Shown in pieces: positions 13,476 through 25,515 of a stretch of DNA of 64,000 nt (the first letter of the stretch is position 1; the number at the start of each line of letters is the position of its first letter). The position numbers were made by a program, and so were the translations under genes. The stretch spans positions 62,001 through 126,000 of the forward strand of contig JAUHVR010000013.1 in the NCBI GenBank assembly GCA_030424865.1, in the 5' to 3' direction. This DNA comes from Alphaproteobacteria bacterium. Its GTDB lineage: Bacteria; Pseudomonadota; Alphaproteobacteria; Rhodobacterales; Rhodobacteraceae. The notes beneath the pieces were generated by a model that had not been told where the DNA came from, ran no database searches, and worked only from the letters and a program-made list of their open reading frames with translations.

Positions 13476-14909
13476 TTACGAAGCCTCTTCAAAACAGAAT
13501 GTGTTGCCAGACCCCCGGTTCAGCCAGCAGGTCCCCTCGGGCACCGGAGGATTGTCCCATTCGTACAGTGTCGAGGCCTCTGATCCGTTGACATATTCCC
13601 AGCTGCTGGCGTGTTTCAGCTCGACCACAACCACGGTCTTGGACCCGGAGGGCCAGGTGAAGGTGCGGTTCACGGTTTTGACGGCTTCGTCGTCTGTCGT
13701 GGTCAACAGGTCCAGCTCGCAGGGATCCTGATCGCGCCTGTCCTGACCGCGCCAGACAGAGCAGATCCCCCTGGCCTGGCGCGCCTCATCCGGTGCGGTC
13801 ATCTGAAGGACCGAGCGGAACTCGAGCGCGTCATCACGTGGCCTTGCGATGTCGCGCAGGGCAAGCCGGTTGTCAAAGAACATCGCGGGCATGATCCCGG
13901 TTTCGATCCCGTCACGCCACGAGATCGTGGCGTATTGATAGGGCCAACTGTTTCCCGAGGCATTCGCCGCGTCAAAGGCATCGCGCGTCTCGATCGGCAG
14001 GCCGATGGTGCAACCGTGCCAGTTGCCTTCGTCCCCAAAGCCCGAGAGCAACAGCTTTTCCCGGTCGTCATATTCGCCCTTGGTCAGTTGCGGGCTGATG
14101 CCAAATCGATCCTTGGCCGTCGTGCCATAGGTGGTCTGATAGTCCGGATCCACGCCCTGAAGGTAGGCAAAATTCTTGGTGCAGGCATTGGCCGCCGCAA
14201 GTGGGGTGACCTTGTCGGGATAGACGGTGCCGACCACAGGAATGTTCAAACGACCGGCATCAAAGGTGGTCTCGACATAGGTCATCGCCTCGGGCGGTGT
14301 CGTCAGGATCGTGGTCAACAGGCTGTCGGACAGTTGCCACGCATGTTTGCGCTGGCTCAACGCGCCAAGTCCCGCGATGGCAATCTTGTAGGCGCGTTCG
14401 ACCTGATCCTTGGAATAGGTGTTGTCAGGCACCGCCAGCGAGGGCGCGTGGAACCCCAGTCGGGACGTCGCATGCATCACGCGGTTGGCCCCCAAAAGCC
14501 CGTCGCCTGTGATCATTTCAGTACCGGACAGGAACAGAACAGCACAGGCCGATTCACAGCGGGCACCACGAGGCACTGCGGTTCCAAGAGCCTGATCGTG
14601 CAGGATGTCGCCCATACGGATCGCCTCGGACAGGCTGCCACCGGGGCTGTTCAGGCAAAGCCGCATCGCCTGGAACCCCAGCGAAAAGGAGTCGCTGCTC
14701 TGGATTCCTTGTTCGGCGGCGTAGGCAGCGTCAATCTCGCGCTGCAGGTCCGGCAGAAGACTGGCCAGACGGTCGGCGTCACCCTTGACGATCGGCCCGC
14801 TCAGCGTGGCGATGCAGCCCATATAGTCATCGCCGCCACGGGTCAGTTCGGCGGCCTGCGCCTGAGTGCAAAGAAGACCCAGGGCAAATACGGCTTGAAC
14901 CAGGCGCAT
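13476..14909 (-). CDS. Secreted ClpP-fold (COG3904-like) protein, paralog 2
   Basis: 477 residues from the ATG at 14907-14909, preceded by GGGAGGATGAC, with a signal peptide ending AQAAEL. Core motifs match paralog 1: YMGCIATLSGPIVKGDA, LCLNSPGGSLSEAI, CESACAVLFLSG (Ser120) and LGFHAPSL (His154). The helical region HAWQLSDSLLTTILTTPP is also shared. The C-terminal region differs from paralog 1 and ends with Cys-rich segments. It lies directly upstream of paralog 1 on the same strand, a tandem duplication with 128 bases between. Confidence 0.7.
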   Translation of the reverse strand: MRLVQAVFALGLLCTQAQAAELTRGGDDYMGCIATLSGPIVKGDADRLASLLPDLQREIDAAYAAEQGIQSSDSFSLGFQAMRLCLNSPGGSLSEAIRMGDILHDQALGTAVPRGARCESACAVLFLSGTEMITGDGLLGANRVMHATSRLGFHAPSLAVPDNTYSKDQVERAYKIAIAGLGALSQRKHAWQLSDSLLTTILTTPPEAMTYVETTFDAGRLNIPVVGTVYPDKVTPLAAANACTKNFAYLQGVDPDYQTTYGTTAKDRFGISPQLTKGEYDDREKLLLSGFGDEGNWHGCTIGLPIETRDAFDAANASGNSWPYQYATISWRDGIETGIMPAMFFDNRLALRDIARPRDDALEFRSVLQMTAPDEARQARGICSVWRGQDRRDQDPCELDLLTTTDDEAVKTVNRTFTWPSGSKTVVVVELKHASSWEYVNGSEASTLYEWDNPPVPEGTCWLNRGSGNTFCFEEAS

Positions 14910-14959
14910 GTCATCCTCCCAAAACAGTCTCGAGAGAATGCTGACCACAAAAGCGTAAA

Positions 14960-16770: not shown

Positions 16771-18204
16771 ATGCCAGAACAGATGATCCGGATGATCGCG
16801 CTTTGGGTCTTTGGGGCACTGGCTGCCCCCGTTCAGGCCGCGACGATCGAGACCATCCCCCAAAACGACATGGGCTGCGTCCTCAGGATTTCGGGCACGC
16901 TCGAGGCGGGGGACGCGGCGCAGCTAGAGACCGTGTTGTCCGGCATCGACTACAGGTTCAGCACCACGCCCGAGGGGGAACGCATCTGCCTGGACAGCGC
17001 CGGAGGTTCGTTGGTTGAAGGCGTCAAGATGGGCGACCTGATCTCGCGCTTTGATTTCGGCACGGTGGTCGAAGGCGGGGCGGTCTGCGAAAGCGCCTGT
17101 GCCATCATGTTCATGTCGGGCAGCTTTTCCCACCCCGAGGCCGAGGGGAACTCGGTCCCCGACCGGCTGCTGCACCCGAAAGGGCGGTTGGGGTTCCACG
17201 CGCCGTCCCTGGTGGCCGAAGATCGCAGCTATTCCCTGCAAGAGATCAACAAGGCCTATGCCGTGGCGCTGGCCAGCATGGGGCAGATCGTGCGCCTGCG
17301 GTCCGAAGGGCGCAGCACCATGGCCGAGTCGCTGTTCCTGACCATCCTGACCACCCCACCGGGAGGGATGACCTATGTCGAAACAGTCGGGCAGGCGGCA
17401 CGCTGGCGCATCGACGTGGCGCCGGTGGCCTTGCCCAAGGCGGCTTCGGACAGGATCATTCTCGATGCCTGCGACAATGCCGATGCGGGTCTTCTGGACA
17501 CAGAGCCCCGCCCCTGGACCCAAAGCGGACTGTCGCGCGCACCCAAGGTGACGCTGACACGCGCCTCGGCGCAAAGCGCGCGGGCGTTTACGCAGGATGG
17601 CTATCGGACCGAGGCGGTCTCGAGCTGTCACATCCAGTTTTCGGCCCCCGACAGCGCGGTGACCCGCATCGGGTTTCTGCAGATGGTTGGCGACTCCGGC
17701 AACCGCGACACCCGGCGCGAGGTCTTTCCCTATCTGTTCTACCCGGCCAGCACCCGGTTGCAGGACTTGCCGGTGGCGCAGCCCAGGTCGAACGCGGGGT
17801 ATGCGGGGTTCACCGCGTCGTTTGACGGCGCAGCGGGGCAGGCCCAGGCGGCTGTCACCTTTGACTCGTGCTTTGTGCAGGAAGAACGGCTGATGATCGT
17901 GAACGTGCAGAACTTCGTCAACCTGCGCCAGCGTCCGGGGTTCAACGCGCAGGTCCTGCGCAAGGTGCCCAAGGGGGAACGCGTGACCGTGCTGGATGCG
18001 GGACGGGTGCATCAGGTCGGCTCGAACGCTGCCAAGACACGATGCCGGGACATCTGTCGGTCCGCGGCGCGACGGCCCGGAAACGCGGCGATGAAGGCGC
18101 GGGCCAATGCCTGCATTGGCGACCACGTCTATTGGTACCGAATCCGCGACGGGCAGGGGACCAGCGGCTTTGTCAGCCGCAAATTCCTTGGAGCGCGGAA
18201 CTGA
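16771..18204 (+). CDS. Secreted ClpP-fold protein, paralog 3, with C-terminal SH3b domain
   Basis: 477 residues with a signal peptide ending VQAATI. The ClpP-like region has ICLDSAGGSLVEGV, CESACAIMFMSG (likely nucleophile Ser108) and LGFHAPSL (His143). The shared helical segment ESLFLTILTTPPGGMTYVET is nearly as in the other two paralogs. Unlike them it ends in a bacterial SH3 domain (NFVNLRQRPGFNAQVLRKVP, then YRIRDGQGTSGFVSRKFL), which suggests binding to peptidoglycan. It is divergent from DUF1489 and about 2 kb from paralog 2. I infer a periplasmic, wall-associated protein. Confidence 0.72.
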   Translation: MPEQMIRMIALWVFGALAAPVQAATIETIPQNDMGCVLRISGTLEAGDAAQLETVLSGIDYRFSTTPEGERICLDSAGGSLVEGVKMGDLISRFDFGTVVEGGAVCESACAIMFMSGSFSHPEAEGNSVPDRLLHPKGRLGFHAPSLVAEDRSYSLQEINKAYAVALASMGQIVRLRSEGRSTMAESLFLTILTTPPGGMTYVETVGQAARWRIDVAPVALPKAASDRIILDACDNADAGLLDTEPRPWTQSGLSRAPKVTLTRASAQSARAFTQDGYRTEAVSSCHIQFSAPDSAVTRIGFLQMVGDSGNRDTRREVFPYLFYPASTRLQDLPVAQPRSNAGYAGFTASFDGAAGQAQAAVTFDSCFVQEERLMIVNVQNFVNLRQRPGFNAQVLRKVPKGERVTVLDAGRVHQVGSNAAKTRCRDICRSAARRPGNAAMKARANACIGDHVYWYRIRDGQGTSGFVSRKFLGARN

Positions 18205-18325: not shown

Positions 18326-20824
18326 ATGACTCGTTTTGCCGCCCCTATTGCCGAACAGATCTGGGATATGAAGTACCGCCTGAAACAGGCGGATGGGACG
18401 CCGGTGGACCAGACCGTCGAAGACACCTGGCGCCGCATCGCCCGGTCGCTGGCGGCCGAAGAGGCGCAGCCGGAGGTCTGGGAAGACAAGTTCTTTGGCG
18501 CTTTGGAGGATTTCAAATATCTGCCCGCAGGCCGGATCACGGCGGGGGCGGGCACCGGGCGGTCAGTGACGCTGTTCAACTGCTTTGTCATGGGCACGAT
18601 CCCCGACAGCATGGGCGGTATCTTTGAAATGCTGAAAGAGGCCGCGCTGACCATGCAGCAGGGCGGCGGGATCGGTTATGATTTCTCGACCATCCGGCCC
18701 AAGGGCGCGGATGTCAAAGGCGTGGCGGCCGATGCCTCGGGGCCCTTGTCGTTCATGGATGTCTGGGACGCCATGTGCCGGACGATCATGTCGGCCGGCT
18801 CGCGCCGGGGGGCGATGATGGCGACGATGCGCTGCGATCACCCGGATGTCGAGCAGTTCATCGCCGCAAAATCCGACAGCGCCCGGTTGCGGATGTTCAA
18901 CCTGTCGGTGCTGGTGACGGATGACTTCATGGAGGCGGTCAAGGCGGATGGGTCCTGGGACCTGCAGTTCGACGGCAAGATCTATCACACCGTGCAGGCG
19001 CGGGATCTGTGGAACCGGATCATGCGCGCGACCTACGATTACGCCGAACCCGGCGTGATCTTCATCGACCGCATCAACCAGGCCAACAACCTGAGCTATG
19101 TCGAGACCATCGCGGCGACGAACCCCTGCGGTGAGCAGCCCTTGCCGCCTTATGGGGCCTGCCTTTTGGGCTCGATCAACCTGGCGCGGCTGGTGTGGTA
19201 TCCGTTTGAAGACGGCAAGGCGCATGTCTGCGAAACGGCGCTGGATGACCTGGTTGCGACAGCGGTGCGGATGATGGACAACGTGGTCGACGCCAGCCGC
19301 TTTCCGCTTGAGGCTCAGGCGCAAGAGGCGCAGGCCAAGCGGCGGATCGGCTTGGGTGTGACCGGGTTGGCGGATGCCCTGCTGATGGTCGGGCTGCGCT
19401 ACGGATCAGAGGAGGCGGCGCGTCAGACCGAGCACTGGTTGAAACGGATTGCCCGCGCCGCGTATCTGGCCTCGGTGCAATTGGCGAAGGAGAAAGGCGC
19501 CTTCCCGCTGTTTGATGCAGAGAAGTACCTGGCCTCTGGCACGATGCAGTTGATGGATGACGATGTACGGGAGGCAATTCGCGAACATGGCATCCGCAAT
19601 GCGCTGCTGACCTCGATCGCGCCAACCGGGACAATCTCGCTGTATGCCGGGAACGTCAGCTCGGGGATCGAGCCGGTCTTTGCCTATGCCTACACCCGCA
19701 AGGTCCTGCAGAAAGACGGCACGCGGACCGAGGAAGAGGTGGTCGATTACGCCGTCCAGATGTGGCGTGAACTGAAAGGTGACGAACCCTTGCCCGATCA
19801 CTTCGTGAACGCCCAGACCCTGGCGCCGCTCGATCACGTACGGATGCAGGCGGCGGCGCAGAAATGGGTCGACTCATCGATCTCGAAGACGATCAACTGC
19901 CCCGAGGATATCTCGTTCGAAGATTTCAAGGACGTTTACATGGAGGCCTGGGATACGGGGTGCAAAGGCTGCACGACCTATCGGCCAAATGATGTGACCG
20001 GCAGTGTTTTGAGTGTGGAACAGACATCGCCTAAGAAAGTGCCAACGTCAGAGATTCTGAAAGAACTCATTGCCAAAGAAGGGACCAATCCTGCAGCACT
20101 ATCGAAAAAAGCGGGTTTGAACGCTCGTGCTGTTACAGACATTATCGAAGGGCGTTCAAAAAACCCAAGGTCTGACACTCTCGAAAAACTGGCGCTGGCA
20201 CTAGAGGTCGAAGTTTCGGTTTTCTATGGGAGTACCGTGCTTCCCGATGTTACGGCGGACGAAGACGGCGCCGAACCGATGCGTCCCCATGGTGATGTGA
20301 TCTACATGTCCGAGCCGCTGGACCGCCCGCAGGCGCTGGAGGGCAACACCTACAAGCTGAAGTGGCCGGACAGTGAACATGCGATCTATCTGACGATCAA
20401 TGATATTGTCGTCGGCGGGCATCGGCGGCCGTTTGAGGTCTTCATCAACTCCAAGAACATGGAGCATTACGCCTGGACGCTGGCGCTGACCCGGATGATC
20501 TCGGCTGTGTTCCGGCGCGGCGGGGACGTGAGCTTTGTGGTCGAAGAGCTGAAGGCCGTCTTTGATCCGCGCGGCGGGGCTTGGGTGCAGGGCAAGTACA
20601 TCCCGTCGATCCTTGCGGCCATCGGAGGCGTGATCGAGCAGCATATGGTGGCGATCGGTTTCCTGGAAGGTGAGGGGATGGGGCTGAAGTCTGATCCCAA
20701 GGCGGCGGTGGTGAACCTGGATGCGCCGCGCGGCAAGGCCTGCCCGTCTTGCGGTCAGTTCGAGATGCGGATGGTCGAGGGCTGCATGACCTGCGCGAGT
20801 TGTGGTCACTCGAAGTGCGGGTGA
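18326..20824 (+). CDS. nrdJ: B12-dependent ribonucleotide reductase with inserted HTH domain
   Basis: 832 residues from the ATG at 18326. The class II reductase core is clear: FKYLPAGRITAGAGTGR, LFNCFVMGTIPDSMGGIF, GGGIGYDFSTIRPKG, NPCGEQPLPPYGACLLGSIN, and TSIAPTGTISLYAGNVSSG. A C-terminal Cys-rich tail follows (CPSCGQFEMR, CMTCASCGHSKCG), probably for redox regeneration. It reduces ribonucleotides using adenosylcobalamin, so it needs no oxygen. Between TYRPNDVTGSVLSVE and GDVIYMSEPLDRPQ lies an insertion (about residues 566-645) containing a Cro/CI-type helix-turn-helix. Hand-counted GC there is 48% (20041-20220) against 67% at 20521-20580. NrdR-box-like sites precede it. Confidence 0.96.
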   Translation: MTRFAAPIAEQIWDMKYRLKQADGTPVDQTVEDTWRRIARSLAAEEAQPEVWEDKFFGALEDFKYLPAGRITAGAGTGRSVTLFNCFVMGTIPDSMGGIFEMLKEAALTMQQGGGIGYDFSTIRPKGADVKGVAADASGPLSFMDVWDAMCRTIMSAGSRRGAMMATMRCDHPDVEQFIAAKSDSARLRMFNLSVLVTDDFMEAVKADGSWDLQFDGKIYHTVQARDLWNRIMRATYDYAEPGVIFIDRINQANNLSYVETIAATNPCGEQPLPPYGACLLGSINLARLVWYPFEDGKAHVCETALDDLVATAVRMMDNVVDASRFPLEAQAQEAQAKRRIGLGVTGLADALLMVGLRYGSEEAARQTEHWLKRIARAAYLASVQLAKEKGAFPLFDAEKYLASGTMQLMDDDVREAIREHGIRNALLTSIAPTGTISLYAGNVSSGIEPVFAYAYTRKVLQKDGTRTEEEVVDYAVQMWRELKGDEPLPDHFVNAQTLAPLDHVRMQAAAQKWVDSSISKTINCPEDISFEDFKDVYMEAWDTGCKGCTTYRPNDVTGSVLSVEQTSPKKVPTSEILKELIAKEGTNPAALSKKAGLNARAVTDIIEGRSKNPRSDTLEKLALALEVEVSVFYGSTVLPDVTADEDGAEPMRPHGDVIYMSEPLDRPQALEGNTYKLKWPDSEHAIYLTINDIVVGGHRRPFEVFINSKNMEHYAWTLALTRMISAVFRRGGDVSFVVEELKAVFDPRGGAWVQGKYIPSILAAIGGVIEQHMVAIGFLEGEGMGLKSDPKAAVVNLDAPRGKACPSCGQFEMRMVEGCMTCASCGHSKCG
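20018..20262 (+). other. In-frame XRE/Cro-CI helix-turn-helix domain inserted in NrdJ
   Basis: The encoded segment reads TSEILKELIAKEGTNPAALS, then KKAGLNARAVTDIIEGRS and PRSDTLEKLALALEVEV. That is the five-helix layout of phage-repressor N-terminal domains, with the HTH at NPAALSKKAGLNARAVTDII. Codons such as CTA, TTG, AAA and TCA are common here and scarce in the flanking enzyme. No start, stop or intein splice motif marks the edges. It reads as a repressor-type domain acquired into a solvent-exposed loop near the C-terminal region. Confidence 0.8.
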
Positions 20825-20969: not shown

Positions 20970-22028
20970 ATGGGCGCTGGCGTCAAGGGCACCTTTGTCA
21001 TTTCCTGGTCTCAGACAGAACTCGATGGCTTTGAAGCACCGCCTCTTGTGGCTCTGACGGTCGGCGCCACATGGCGCTGGACCGGCACACCCCTCAGGGT
21101 CGATGGTCCCATTGATGTTCTGGCCTTGGACCAACCCCTTGGACAGGCCGAGCTGCGGCAGCGCGCGGCGCGTGCCGTGCGTCGGTTGGTGGGTGCGGCT
21201 GTCAGTGGCGCCCCCCTGACCCAGCCTGCGCTGGACGAAGATGCGCCCCTTCGCGACCGCAGCTTCACCGTCACCAACGGGTTCCGCAGCTTCACGGTCA
21301 CGCTGATCGACGTCCCCGACCATCCCCGCCCCCTGTTGATGTTCACCGACGCGCTGCCGCCCAAGGACACCGACCTCTGGGTCGTCCAGCGCAACCTCTC
21401 GCAACGCCCATTCCGCGACCGGACTCTTGGTGTCATCTGCTTCACGCCCGGCACCCGCATCGCCACGGCCAAGGGCCTGGTTCCGGTGCAGGACCTGCGC
21501 GAGGGCGACATGATCCAGACCAAGGACAATGGCGTGCAGGAACTGCTCTGGACCGGGGCCAAGCGCCTGACTGGCGCGCGGCTTTATTCGATGCCCGATC
21601 TCAGGCCGATCCGCATCCGCGCCGGGGCCTTTGGTCTCGACCGACCTGATCAGGAGTTCCTGGTGTCACCCGACCACCGCATGGTGATTTCGGGGCGCGT
21701 GGCGCAGGCCCTGTTCAACACCTCCGAGGTGCTGGTGGCCGCCCGCGATCTGGTCAACTGGACCACCGTCAGCCGTGATATCACCACACCTGACGTGACC
21801 TATGTGCATCTTCTGCTGCCCCAGCACGAGATCATCTTTGCCAATGGCGTCGAGACCGAAAGCTTTCACCCCGGCAGCACCGATCTTGGGCTGATGAACC
21901 AGATCGACCGCGCCCGGTTGCATGGCGTGATGCCCGAGATCGACGACGATCCGATGACCTATGGCGGGTTCGCGCGCCGTCAGCTCAGCCGGTCCGAAGC
22001 CGCTTTGCTGACGCACCAGGCGGCCTAG
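20970..22028 (+). CDS. Hint (hedgehog/intein) domain protein
   Basis: 352 residues. The N-terminal ~150 residues are a beta-rich region of unknown role, ending in LWVVQRNLSQRPF. A Hint domain follows: the nucleophile-bearing start VICFTPGTRIATAKGLVPV (Cys about residue 157), then LREGDMIQTKDNG, FLVSPDHRMVISG (His of block B), and YVHLLLPQHEIIFANGVETE. Such Hint_2 proteins are abundant in Rhodobacterales. The residue after the Hint end is not a clear splice acceptor, so self-cleavage or a non-splicing role is more likely than protein splicing. Convergent with the SH3 gene one base downstream. Confidence 0.8.
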   Translation: MGAGVKGTFVISWSQTELDGFEAPPLVALTVGATWRWTGTPLRVDGPIDVLALDQPLGQAELRQRAARAVRRLVGAAVSGAPLTQPALDEDAPLRDRSFTVTNGFRSFTVTLIDVPDHPRPLLMFTDALPPKDTDLWVVQRNLSQRPFRDRTLGVICFTPGTRIATAKGLVPVQDLREGDMIQTKDNGVQELLWTGAKRLTGARLYSMPDLRPIRIRAGAFGLDRPDQEFLVSPDHRMVISGRVAQALFNTSEVLVAARDLVNWTTVSRDITTPDVTYVHLLLPQHEIIFANGVETESFHPGSTDLGLMNQIDRARLHGVMPEIDDDPMTYGGFARRQLSRSEAALLTHQAA

Positions 22029-23724: not shown

Positions 23725-25515
23725 TCATTCGATTTCCATGACGAAACTGACATGTCCGTCTGGAAGGTCTCCCCACAGTGGCGATGCGAAAGCGTTGCTT
23801 TGCCCGGCTACCGGCTTGGCAAAGTAGTGATGAAACTTGGCCACATGTTCAGTGTTGGCGTAGTTGTTTGGTTCGTTCGGGTCCCAAGGCAGGTAGTCGA
23901 CAGGTTCACCGGTCACCCAAGCCCAACCCCCTTCGGGTTCAAGCGAATTGGGAAGCTGACGCAATCCAAACATTGGGCCAAAAGTTCCTTGATCGTCAGT
24001 CGCGAACTCCCACAGCCGTTTGTCTCCTTTGACGAGGTCGAATACAAAGTCGTTCTCTTCTTCACTTGTCATGGTCGCCAAATGCCCGCCGGCTCTTTCG
24101 GCCAGAGATTGGGATTGCTCGAAATTCAATCCCCAACTCAGAACAGCGATATAAATCCTACCGTCATAGATGCCGTAGGCAATCTCAAAGTCTTTAAGTT
24201 CTCTAGCCGCACGGATCAATCGACGGTCTGCCTCGACGACGGCGAGCATATCTGGGTCGAATTTGCGCACGTTGGACGAAGCGACAAGAACCTGATCACC
24301 TGTTTCGGCTTCATCAAGCTCAACATCCAGCGCCAAGGCAGTTGCGCTCGTTATCACGCCGGTCACTGTCAGGTTCATCGAGGCTTGGAAATCCGCAATG
24401 GCTTGTCGGGTCTTGACGCCGACAACGCCATCGGGCGCGCCGGGATCGTATCCGCGGTCCAACAGCGCTTGTTGAATAGCCTGATAGTTTTCTTTGGACA
24501 GCCCCAACTTGTTTTCCGTTCCGCGCGCCACAGAAGCCGAAACCTCAAGAGTATTGTCCGCCTCCACCAACGTACCCGATACGCTGGAGAGTTCAGCAGT
24601 CTCCAGACGTTCGAGTTCAGAAAGCGCGAACTCCCGAAGTCGCCCAGCGGGGAACTTGTCCAAATAGATGTTCCACGCCCGACGTGTTCCAATCGCCGAG
24701 GCCGCTTCAAAAAAGGCTTCTTCCTGATTGTATGCGAGCACGGCCCCCGGTCCACTGTCCCCGAGGTTCAAGTAGATCTCTGTAACCAGGTCATTGGTCA
24801 CCATGGGTGTCTGCTTGTCCCCGGTGCCGCCTTTGACATCCCGGATCACCCGTTTCATCAGGGACAGAACCTCGGCGTTTTCGGTGTCCAGATGGCGGGC
24901 CAGGGATTCCGCGAAGATCGAGTTCGCGCCCTCGCCGTCAAATGCCACCTGCCCCGGTGAGGCCGAGAACACCACCATCGCGCCGTCGGACATGCTGGTC
25001 ACCGGCGCCAACCCGCGCGTCATCATCGCGCGCGTTTCCGAGAAGTTCTGTGTGTAGAACGCATTCGCCAACGGGTTGTCGCGGCAGGCGTCGATGAAAA
25101 CAAGGCTGGCCTTGGAATTCCGCTGCATCAGCGTCAAGACCTGTTCCAGCGAAATCGTCTCGCCCAGTATGTCGAACTCGCTGGCCAGCGCGGCGTCGAC
25201 AGGGATCAGGTAGTTCTTGCCGTCGAACTGCATGCCGTGGCCTGCAAAGTAGAACAGCATGACGTCGGCGCCTTTGTGGGTCTTCACAAAGGACGACAGG
25301 TTCCGGCCCAGGTCAGCCCGCGATTGGTCGAGGTGCAAGGTGACGTCAAAGTCCAGCCCCGCCAGAGTGTCCGCGATCAGCCGTGCATCGGCGACGGGGT
25401 TCTTCAAGGGGTTGGAGTGCAGGTAGGCACTGTTCCCGACAACAAAGGCGACGCGGCTTTCGGCCAGGGCCAGGCCGGGAAGCAATAGCAGGAAAAGCAG
25501 TACGGCGCGGAACAT
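23725..25515 (-). CDS. Secreted caspase-like (C14) / PG-binding / C-type lectin protein, copy 1
   Basis: 596 residues with a signal peptide ending ALAES. Domains in order: caspase p20 with catalytic His93 (FYFAGHGMQ) and Cys144 (FIDACRDNP); a linker; a PG_binding_1 motif (about 336-395, ALLDRGYDPGAPDGVVG, QAIADFQASMNL); and a C-type-lectin-like domain (about 445-596). The lectin part has AERAGGHLATMTSEEE, GGWAWVTGEPVDYLPW, an EPNN motif like the mannose-type calcium site, and WGDLPDG near the end. The lectin half has lower GC (88 of 180 hand-counted bases in three lines between 24001 and 24240) than the protease half. Probably periplasmic or surface-exposed; function unknown. Confidence 0.88.
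   Translation of the reverse strand: MFRAVLLFLLLLPGLALAESRVAFVVGNSAYLHSNPLKNPVADARLIADTLAGLDFDVTLHLDQSRADLGRNLSSFVKTHKGADVMLFYFAGHGMQFDGKNYLIPVDAALASEFDILGETISLEQVLTLMQRNSKASLVFIDACRDNPLANAFYTQNFSETRAMMTRGLAPVTSMSDGAMVVFSASPGQVAFDGEGANSIFAESLARHLDTENAEVLSLMKRVIRDVKGGTGDKQTPMVTNDLVTEIYLNLGDSGPGAVLAYNQEEAFFEAASAIGTRRAWNIYLDKFPAGRLREFALSELERLETAELSSVSGTLVEADNTLEVSASVARGTENKLGLSKENYQAIQQALLDRGYDPGAPDGVVGVKTRQAIADFQASMNLTVTGVITSATALALDVELDEAETGDQVLVASSNVRKFDPDMLAVVEADRRLIRAARELKDFEIAYGIYDGRIYIAVLSWGLNFEQSQSLAERAGGHLATMTSEEENDFVFDLVKGDKRLWEFATDDQGTFGPMFGLRQLPNSLEPEGGWAWVTGEPVDYLPWDPNEPNNYANTEHVAKFHHYFAKPVAGQSNAFASPLWGDLPDGHVSFVMEIE

Follow-up and report, generated by a model that had tools for sequence, protein, structure and literature searches.

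Ribonucleotide reductases (RNRs) are among the most studied of enzymes, and they are known to be controlled by way of allosteric sites, ATP-cones and NrdR. The trigger enzymes NadR, BirA and PutA carry a fused DNA-binding domain, and in these proteins the heads are, as far as is known, stable and the operators are known. The NrdJ protein described here, a predicted class II RNR encoded in a 64,000-nucleotide stretch of a Rhodobacteraceae contig (JAUHVR010000013.1; hereafter, the window), resembles them in that a metabolic enzyme and a domain of DNA-binding type, in this case a Cro/CI (XRE) helix-turn-helix (HTH), share a single chain. Unlike them, its head appears to be exchanged among relatives, and a search upstream of nrdJ gave no operator. 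With the Cro/CI repressors (434 Cro/CI, P22 c2, SinR, DdrO) the NrdJ domain has in common its HTH_3 and HTH_26 matches, a multi-helix fold and TM scores of 0.7-0.77; the HTH of these repressors is N-terminal, however, whereas that of NrdJ lies inside a metabolic enzyme, attached by two tethers, and has a lower mean charge. An HTH-like fold inside an enzyme chain also occurs in HEPD (6b9r), an enzyme that is unrelated to NrdJ and offers a precedent only for the presence of such a fold in an enzyme.

The elements covered by a survey of class II RNRs (Burnim et al. 2022, PMC9669993), namely the barrel, the finger loop, the TSCPD domain and the cysteine-rich tail, are all present and conserved in the window's NrdJ, which has in addition an HTH after the barrel and before the TSCPD domain; in the main text of that survey, neither helix-turn-helix nor DNA-binding occurs as a term. 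Domain mosaicism in phages, with recent exchange that includes RNRs and the winged HTH of replication initiators, is the subject of PMC10684548. The NrdJ case is similar in its recent domain exchange but concerns a bacterial protein and a single linker slot, and an HTH in an RNR is not described in the passages of that paper covered here. In the literature searched, which comprised open-licence papers and included RNR family surveys, no RNR with an HTH was found.

The NrdJ of the window and its inserted domain

The nrdJ gene (18326..20824, + strand, as are all the features of the protein given below) runs in an unbroken frame from the ATG at 18326 to a stop at 20824 and encodes an adenosylcobalamin-dependent class II RNR of 832 aa by its Pfam domains and by its score of 590 bits against the NrdJ_Z model TIGR02504 (cut-off 400). 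It comprises an RNR all-alpha N-terminal domain (PF00317; aa 8-79, 18347..18562), the catalytic barrel (PF02867, E 2e-129; aa 85-552, 18578..19981), a TSCPD domain (PF12637; aa 676-774, 20351..20647), which we equate, from its position, with the 'IscU-like' domain described in PMC9669993, and a C-terminal cysteine-rich zinc-finger/redox tail (aa 806-831, 20741..20818). No ATP-cone is found among the Pfam matches, and the RNR N-terminal domain begins as early as aa 8. In an alignment of 38 relatives, C86 and C268 of the barrel and C806, C809, C820, C823, C826 and C831 of the tail are invariant, and the finger loop (NPCGE, aa 266-270) is kept throughout.

Between the end of the barrel at aa 552 and the start of the TSCPD domain at aa 676 lies an insert of about 90 aa that is mostly missing in most relatives. 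Alignment with HTH-less relatives, such as the same-genus locus L067, together with its low GC and GC3 (third-position GC), places the inserted segment with its linkers at about aa 565-655 (20018..20290). Pfam HTH_26 and HTH_3 match aa 578-631 with E-values of 5e-5 and 7e-5 in the whole protein, just over the gathering score, and match the insert alone at 1.7e-6 (28.6 bits, cut-off 22) and 2.7e-6 (27.8 bits, cut-off 23), respectively. GC over the insert is 0.478-0.506 in 180-base windows, against about 0.58-0.68 in both flanks, and third-position GC is 0.47 against 0.81 in the rest of the gene. A full-length AlphaFold2 model, built with 38 sequences and moderate overall (mean pLDDT 70, pTM 0.64), shows an HTH domain of five helices at aa 574-634 (20045..20227) with pLDDT of about 84-93, the recognition helix being LNARAVTDII. 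The domain is flanked by stretches with pLDDT below 50 at aa 555-570 and 636-669; the second of these, a disordered C-side linker (20231..20332), carries AEPMRPHGDVIY. When the HTH was modelled alone it gave four helices with a pLDDT of 75, and Foldseek matched this model to DdrO, SinR, 434 Cro, P22 c2 and CapH at TM of about 0.7-0.77, with HEPD 6b9r also among the fold matches and no E-value at or below 0.001.

The original prediction had described an RNR core that is continuous and intact, interrupted in frame by a Cro/CI-type HTH whose base composition is unlike that of its flanks, and had proposed structure prediction as a check. The single open frame, the complete domains and the invariant cysteines bear out the first of these statements, and the product of nrdJ is predicted to be an intact B12-dependent class II RNR that reduces nucleotides. 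The HTH was recovered by Pfam, by AlphaFold2 as a confident five-helix domain between low-pLDDT stretches and by Foldseek, and the GC values agree with the compositional contrast. According to the model, the insert is a folded Cro/CI-type HTH held on disordered tethers that join barrel and TSCPD domain; an ordinary linker is ruled out by the Pfam matches and the modelled structure.

The enzyme had been correctly assigned to class II, although it is not the only class II RNR of its genome. The genome also encodes NrdR and a second class II RNR, whose open frame spans 1,277 aa, and no match to any RNR beyond the two was obtained in it. Since a large class II RNR of about 1,250 aa is present in 270 of 286 Rhodobacteraceae genomes, the small, HTH-bearing NrdJ is, to judge from gene content, an accessory RNR. 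Its immediate neighbours are ordinary, with no phage genes among those tested. Directly downstream of nrdJ is a gene for a Hint_2 domain protein (20970-22028, +), and further on, one for a protein that has a caspase domain and also peptidoglycan-binding and C-type-lectin matches (23725-25515, -). Two open frames on the other side (13476-14948, -, and 16771-18204, +) have similar secreted-protein-like starts, with an SH3_3 match in the second.

Distribution, turnover and source of the HTH

Small NrdJ proteins were sought in 296 Rhodobacteraceae genomes, almost every one of a different genus, and 267 of these genomes carried one. As judged from full-length matches and inspection of the linkers, an HTH is present at the same point of the linker in at least 36 of these 267 genera, among them Puniceibacterium confluentis, Pseudooceanicola batsensis, Rhodosalinus halophilus, Aliishimia ponticola and Roseovarius amoyensis. 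The alignment with related NrdJ proteins that the original prediction had called for thus places the segment well beyond the window's genome. A one-off capture there is rejected by these same-site HTHs, and an assembly artefact by their occurrence across many independent genomes, named isolates included. All the long inserts read in the family (53 rows) look like Cro/CI HTHs and no other kind was recognised in Rhodobacteraceae linkers; 46 of 49 linker domains match Pfam HTH_3, and a single phage regulator family is matched by 41 of the 49. None of the 26 linkers read from outside the family has an HTH, and among the matches listed there is no full-length HTH-type NrdJ from a non-Rhodobacteraceae genome. 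No HTH was seen by eye in the readable viral NrdJ linkers (about 18 of 66 viral loci could not be parsed), and on this count a viral origin of the fused gene was rejected. In the NrdJs of six viral contigs (L187, L188, L190, L211, L245 and L249), this linker holds different and longer segments. The NrdJ frame is open in all HTH-bearing rows except one genome (G009; L076/L315), in which it is lost after the HTH and the TSCPD part forms a separate open frame of 240 aa in a different frame, either by sequencing error or as a true split gene. Another genome (G180; L053, L068) has two small NrdJ copies in its assembly, one with the HTH and one without, which could be contamination.

Presence of the HTH, when mapped onto the tree built from 68 enzyme cores, requires 21 changes, at least 5 of which are forced by starred branches, and it is not clustered on this tree (126 to 133 of 500 shuffles were equally low). 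The AU test rejects a single clade of NrdJ-borne HTHs (p 0.007) when 48 linker HTHs are compared with 59 free-standing HTHs of the same family, the latter obtained from searches with four HTH queries. The tree of these sequences, which with 64 residues, few columns and long branches is weakly resolved, gives 12 changes, 3 of them forced. HTH identity and core identity are uncorrelated (rho 0.08, Mantel p 0.11). For example, the cores of L051 and L114 are 93% identical and their HTHs 24%, and in a same-genus pair (G250/G296) the values are 90% and 35%; the only other species of the window's genus that was compared (G082) is without the HTH at a core identity of 93%. In G118 (L271/L277), an open NrdJ frame of 943 aa contains two unlike HTHs in tandem, of subtype D and then subtype C in our own grouping, which was made by eye and from the tree.

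The composition of the inserts was compared with that of the linkers. The GC3 deficit relative to the rest of the gene averages 0.19 for HTH inserts and 0.05 for HTH-less linkers (Mann-Whitney p 5e-13, with some duplicates among the rows, which are therefore not independent). In subtype C inserts the deficit is slight or nil, and these inserts may be older. The PHGD motif, which belongs to the C-side linker, is found in most HTH-bearing NrdJs and also in 14 of 91 HTH-less linkers, where we read it as a probable scar of loss; a landing site is another possibility. In four loci (L069, L076, L112 and L307), a common proline-rich, GGTAGQPPAAPTGGG-like linker follows unlike HTHs. Third-position identity, raised values of which would mark recombination through conserved flanks, was not raised beside the insert, and recent exchange by homologous recombination through these flanks was rejected accordingly. 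Simple inheritance of one ancestral HTH is disfavoured by the AU test and by the comparison of core and HTH. Because the HTH types are mutually unlike, uncoupled from the core, rejected as a clade and poor in GC3, and because scars and a tandem arrangement occur, the view that this accessory NrdJ has, in its linker, a slot in which repressor-type HTHs have been repeatedly gained, exchanged and lost is well supported by the sequences compared, even though very fast divergence of the HTH is not completely separable from exchange.

The best free-standing matches of the window's HTH are at about 38-47% identity, so that no close donor was found among them, and tblastn against phage and plasmid collections gave no match at E 1e-3. 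The original prediction of a captured phage or plasmid repressor domain thus holds as far as the foreign-looking composition, the similarity to phage repressor families and the repeated gain, exchange and loss in relatives are concerned, but it lacks a close donor. In the course of events that we propose for this lineage, XRE-type repressor HTHs would be captured or swapped in frame time and again, retained while useful and then lost.

Possible roles of the HTH in NrdJ

The mean net charge of NrdJ-borne HTHs is +0.4, against +1.8 for free-standing HTHs, a hit-derived sample (p 0.002). The HTH of subtype C is acidic (-3.8), as is its recognition helix, and with this charge it would suit DNA poorly. 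In a set of five genera within subtype A, the recognition helix is conserved at 81% and the remaining HTH at 53%, while in subtypes B and C it is less conserved than the remainder. Our best guess, which we place a little short of probable, is that the HTH is a DNA-docking head of NrdJ. Through it the enzyme, alone or as a dimer, would be brought to sites in other parts of the genome or on mobile elements, where the docked NrdJ could serve as a DNA-associated source of dNTPs or as a regulator. Such a head would be replaceable, since long-term selection would act on the kind of domain and not on any one operator. Docking is weakened by the charge values, by the recognition helices of subtypes B and C, and by searches that gave neither an operator upstream of nrdJ nor a close donor. 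A fuller version, in which an exchangeable DNA-reading head docks NrdJ on possibly prophage or mobile sites, is replaced by others from the XRE repressor pool in step with changes in these elements and links dNTP supply to gene control or immunity, is unlikely.

The main rival to DNA docking holds that the HTH fold is a module for protein interaction or oligomerisation, tuning self-association of NrdJ or its contacts with partners beside the TSCPD domain and the zinc-finger tail. We regard it as possible but doubtful. The charge below that of free-standing HTHs, acidic in subtype C, and the tolerance of very different recognition helices are in its favour, as are HEPD among the fold matches and the location of the slot, next to the TSCPD/IscU-like and zinc-finger domains that are proposed in PMC9669993 to support oligomerisation. 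It would, however, need the same interface from unlike HTH subtypes, and in subtype A it is the recognition helix that is best conserved. It is also well established that, in the absence of DNA, the N-terminal domains of Cro/CI proteins mostly form weak dimers. Binding of NrdJ to its own promoter through the HTH, in the fashion of a trigger enzyme, was the role put forward in the original prediction; it would match the architecture of NadR, BirA and PutA as generally known, and subtypes A, D and E have a plausible recognition helix. The upstream sequences gave it no support. In about 250 bases upstream of nrdJ we found no inverted repeat that was tied to the presence of the HTH or shared within a subtype beyond controls, in a search that could have missed weak or degenerate operators. 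The DnaA-box-like TTATCCACA occurs there in 20 of 50 HTH-bearing and 40 of 91 HTH-less cases and was not seen upstream of the window's nrdJ, and a link between HTH and these boxes was discarded. Every unlike head would, moreover, require a new operator, and autoregulation is quite improbable.

A dispensable enzyme whose linker tolerates insertions might also simply collect small domains neutrally, the HTHs having no function. This would suit an accessory enzyme whose linker varies in length elsewhere and holds other inserts in viral NrdJs, but other domains would then be expected too, and the long inserts of the family are uniformly Cro/CI-HTH-like, in frames that are open in all rows but that of G009; we consider such a neutral trap very unlikely. 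Lowest in our estimate, and highly improbable, is a domesticated immunity in which captured heads bind and repress operators of prophages or plasmids, with NrdJ as their carrier and a turnover that tracks the mobile elements. The similarity to phage repressor families, the low GC3 of the inserts, the fast turnover with tandem heads in G118 and a partial, weak resemblance to the defence-associated HTHs CapH and RmrA would agree with it, whereas the reduced charge and the lack of phage or plasmid matches to the window's HTH at E 1e-3 argue against it.

Meaning for the family

A repressor-type HTH inside an RNR, present in many genera and repeatedly replaced, is unmentioned in what was searched of the RNR family surveys. 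Its gain, loss and exchange suggest an unrecognised tie of NrdJ with DNA or with regulation. The HTH would provide a direct physical route linking dNTP synthesis and DNA, and in the NrdJ linker nature offers an example of domains exchanged at a single fixed position within a metabolic enzyme of bacteria. The putative route and the exchange can each be tested in culturable Rhodobacterales.
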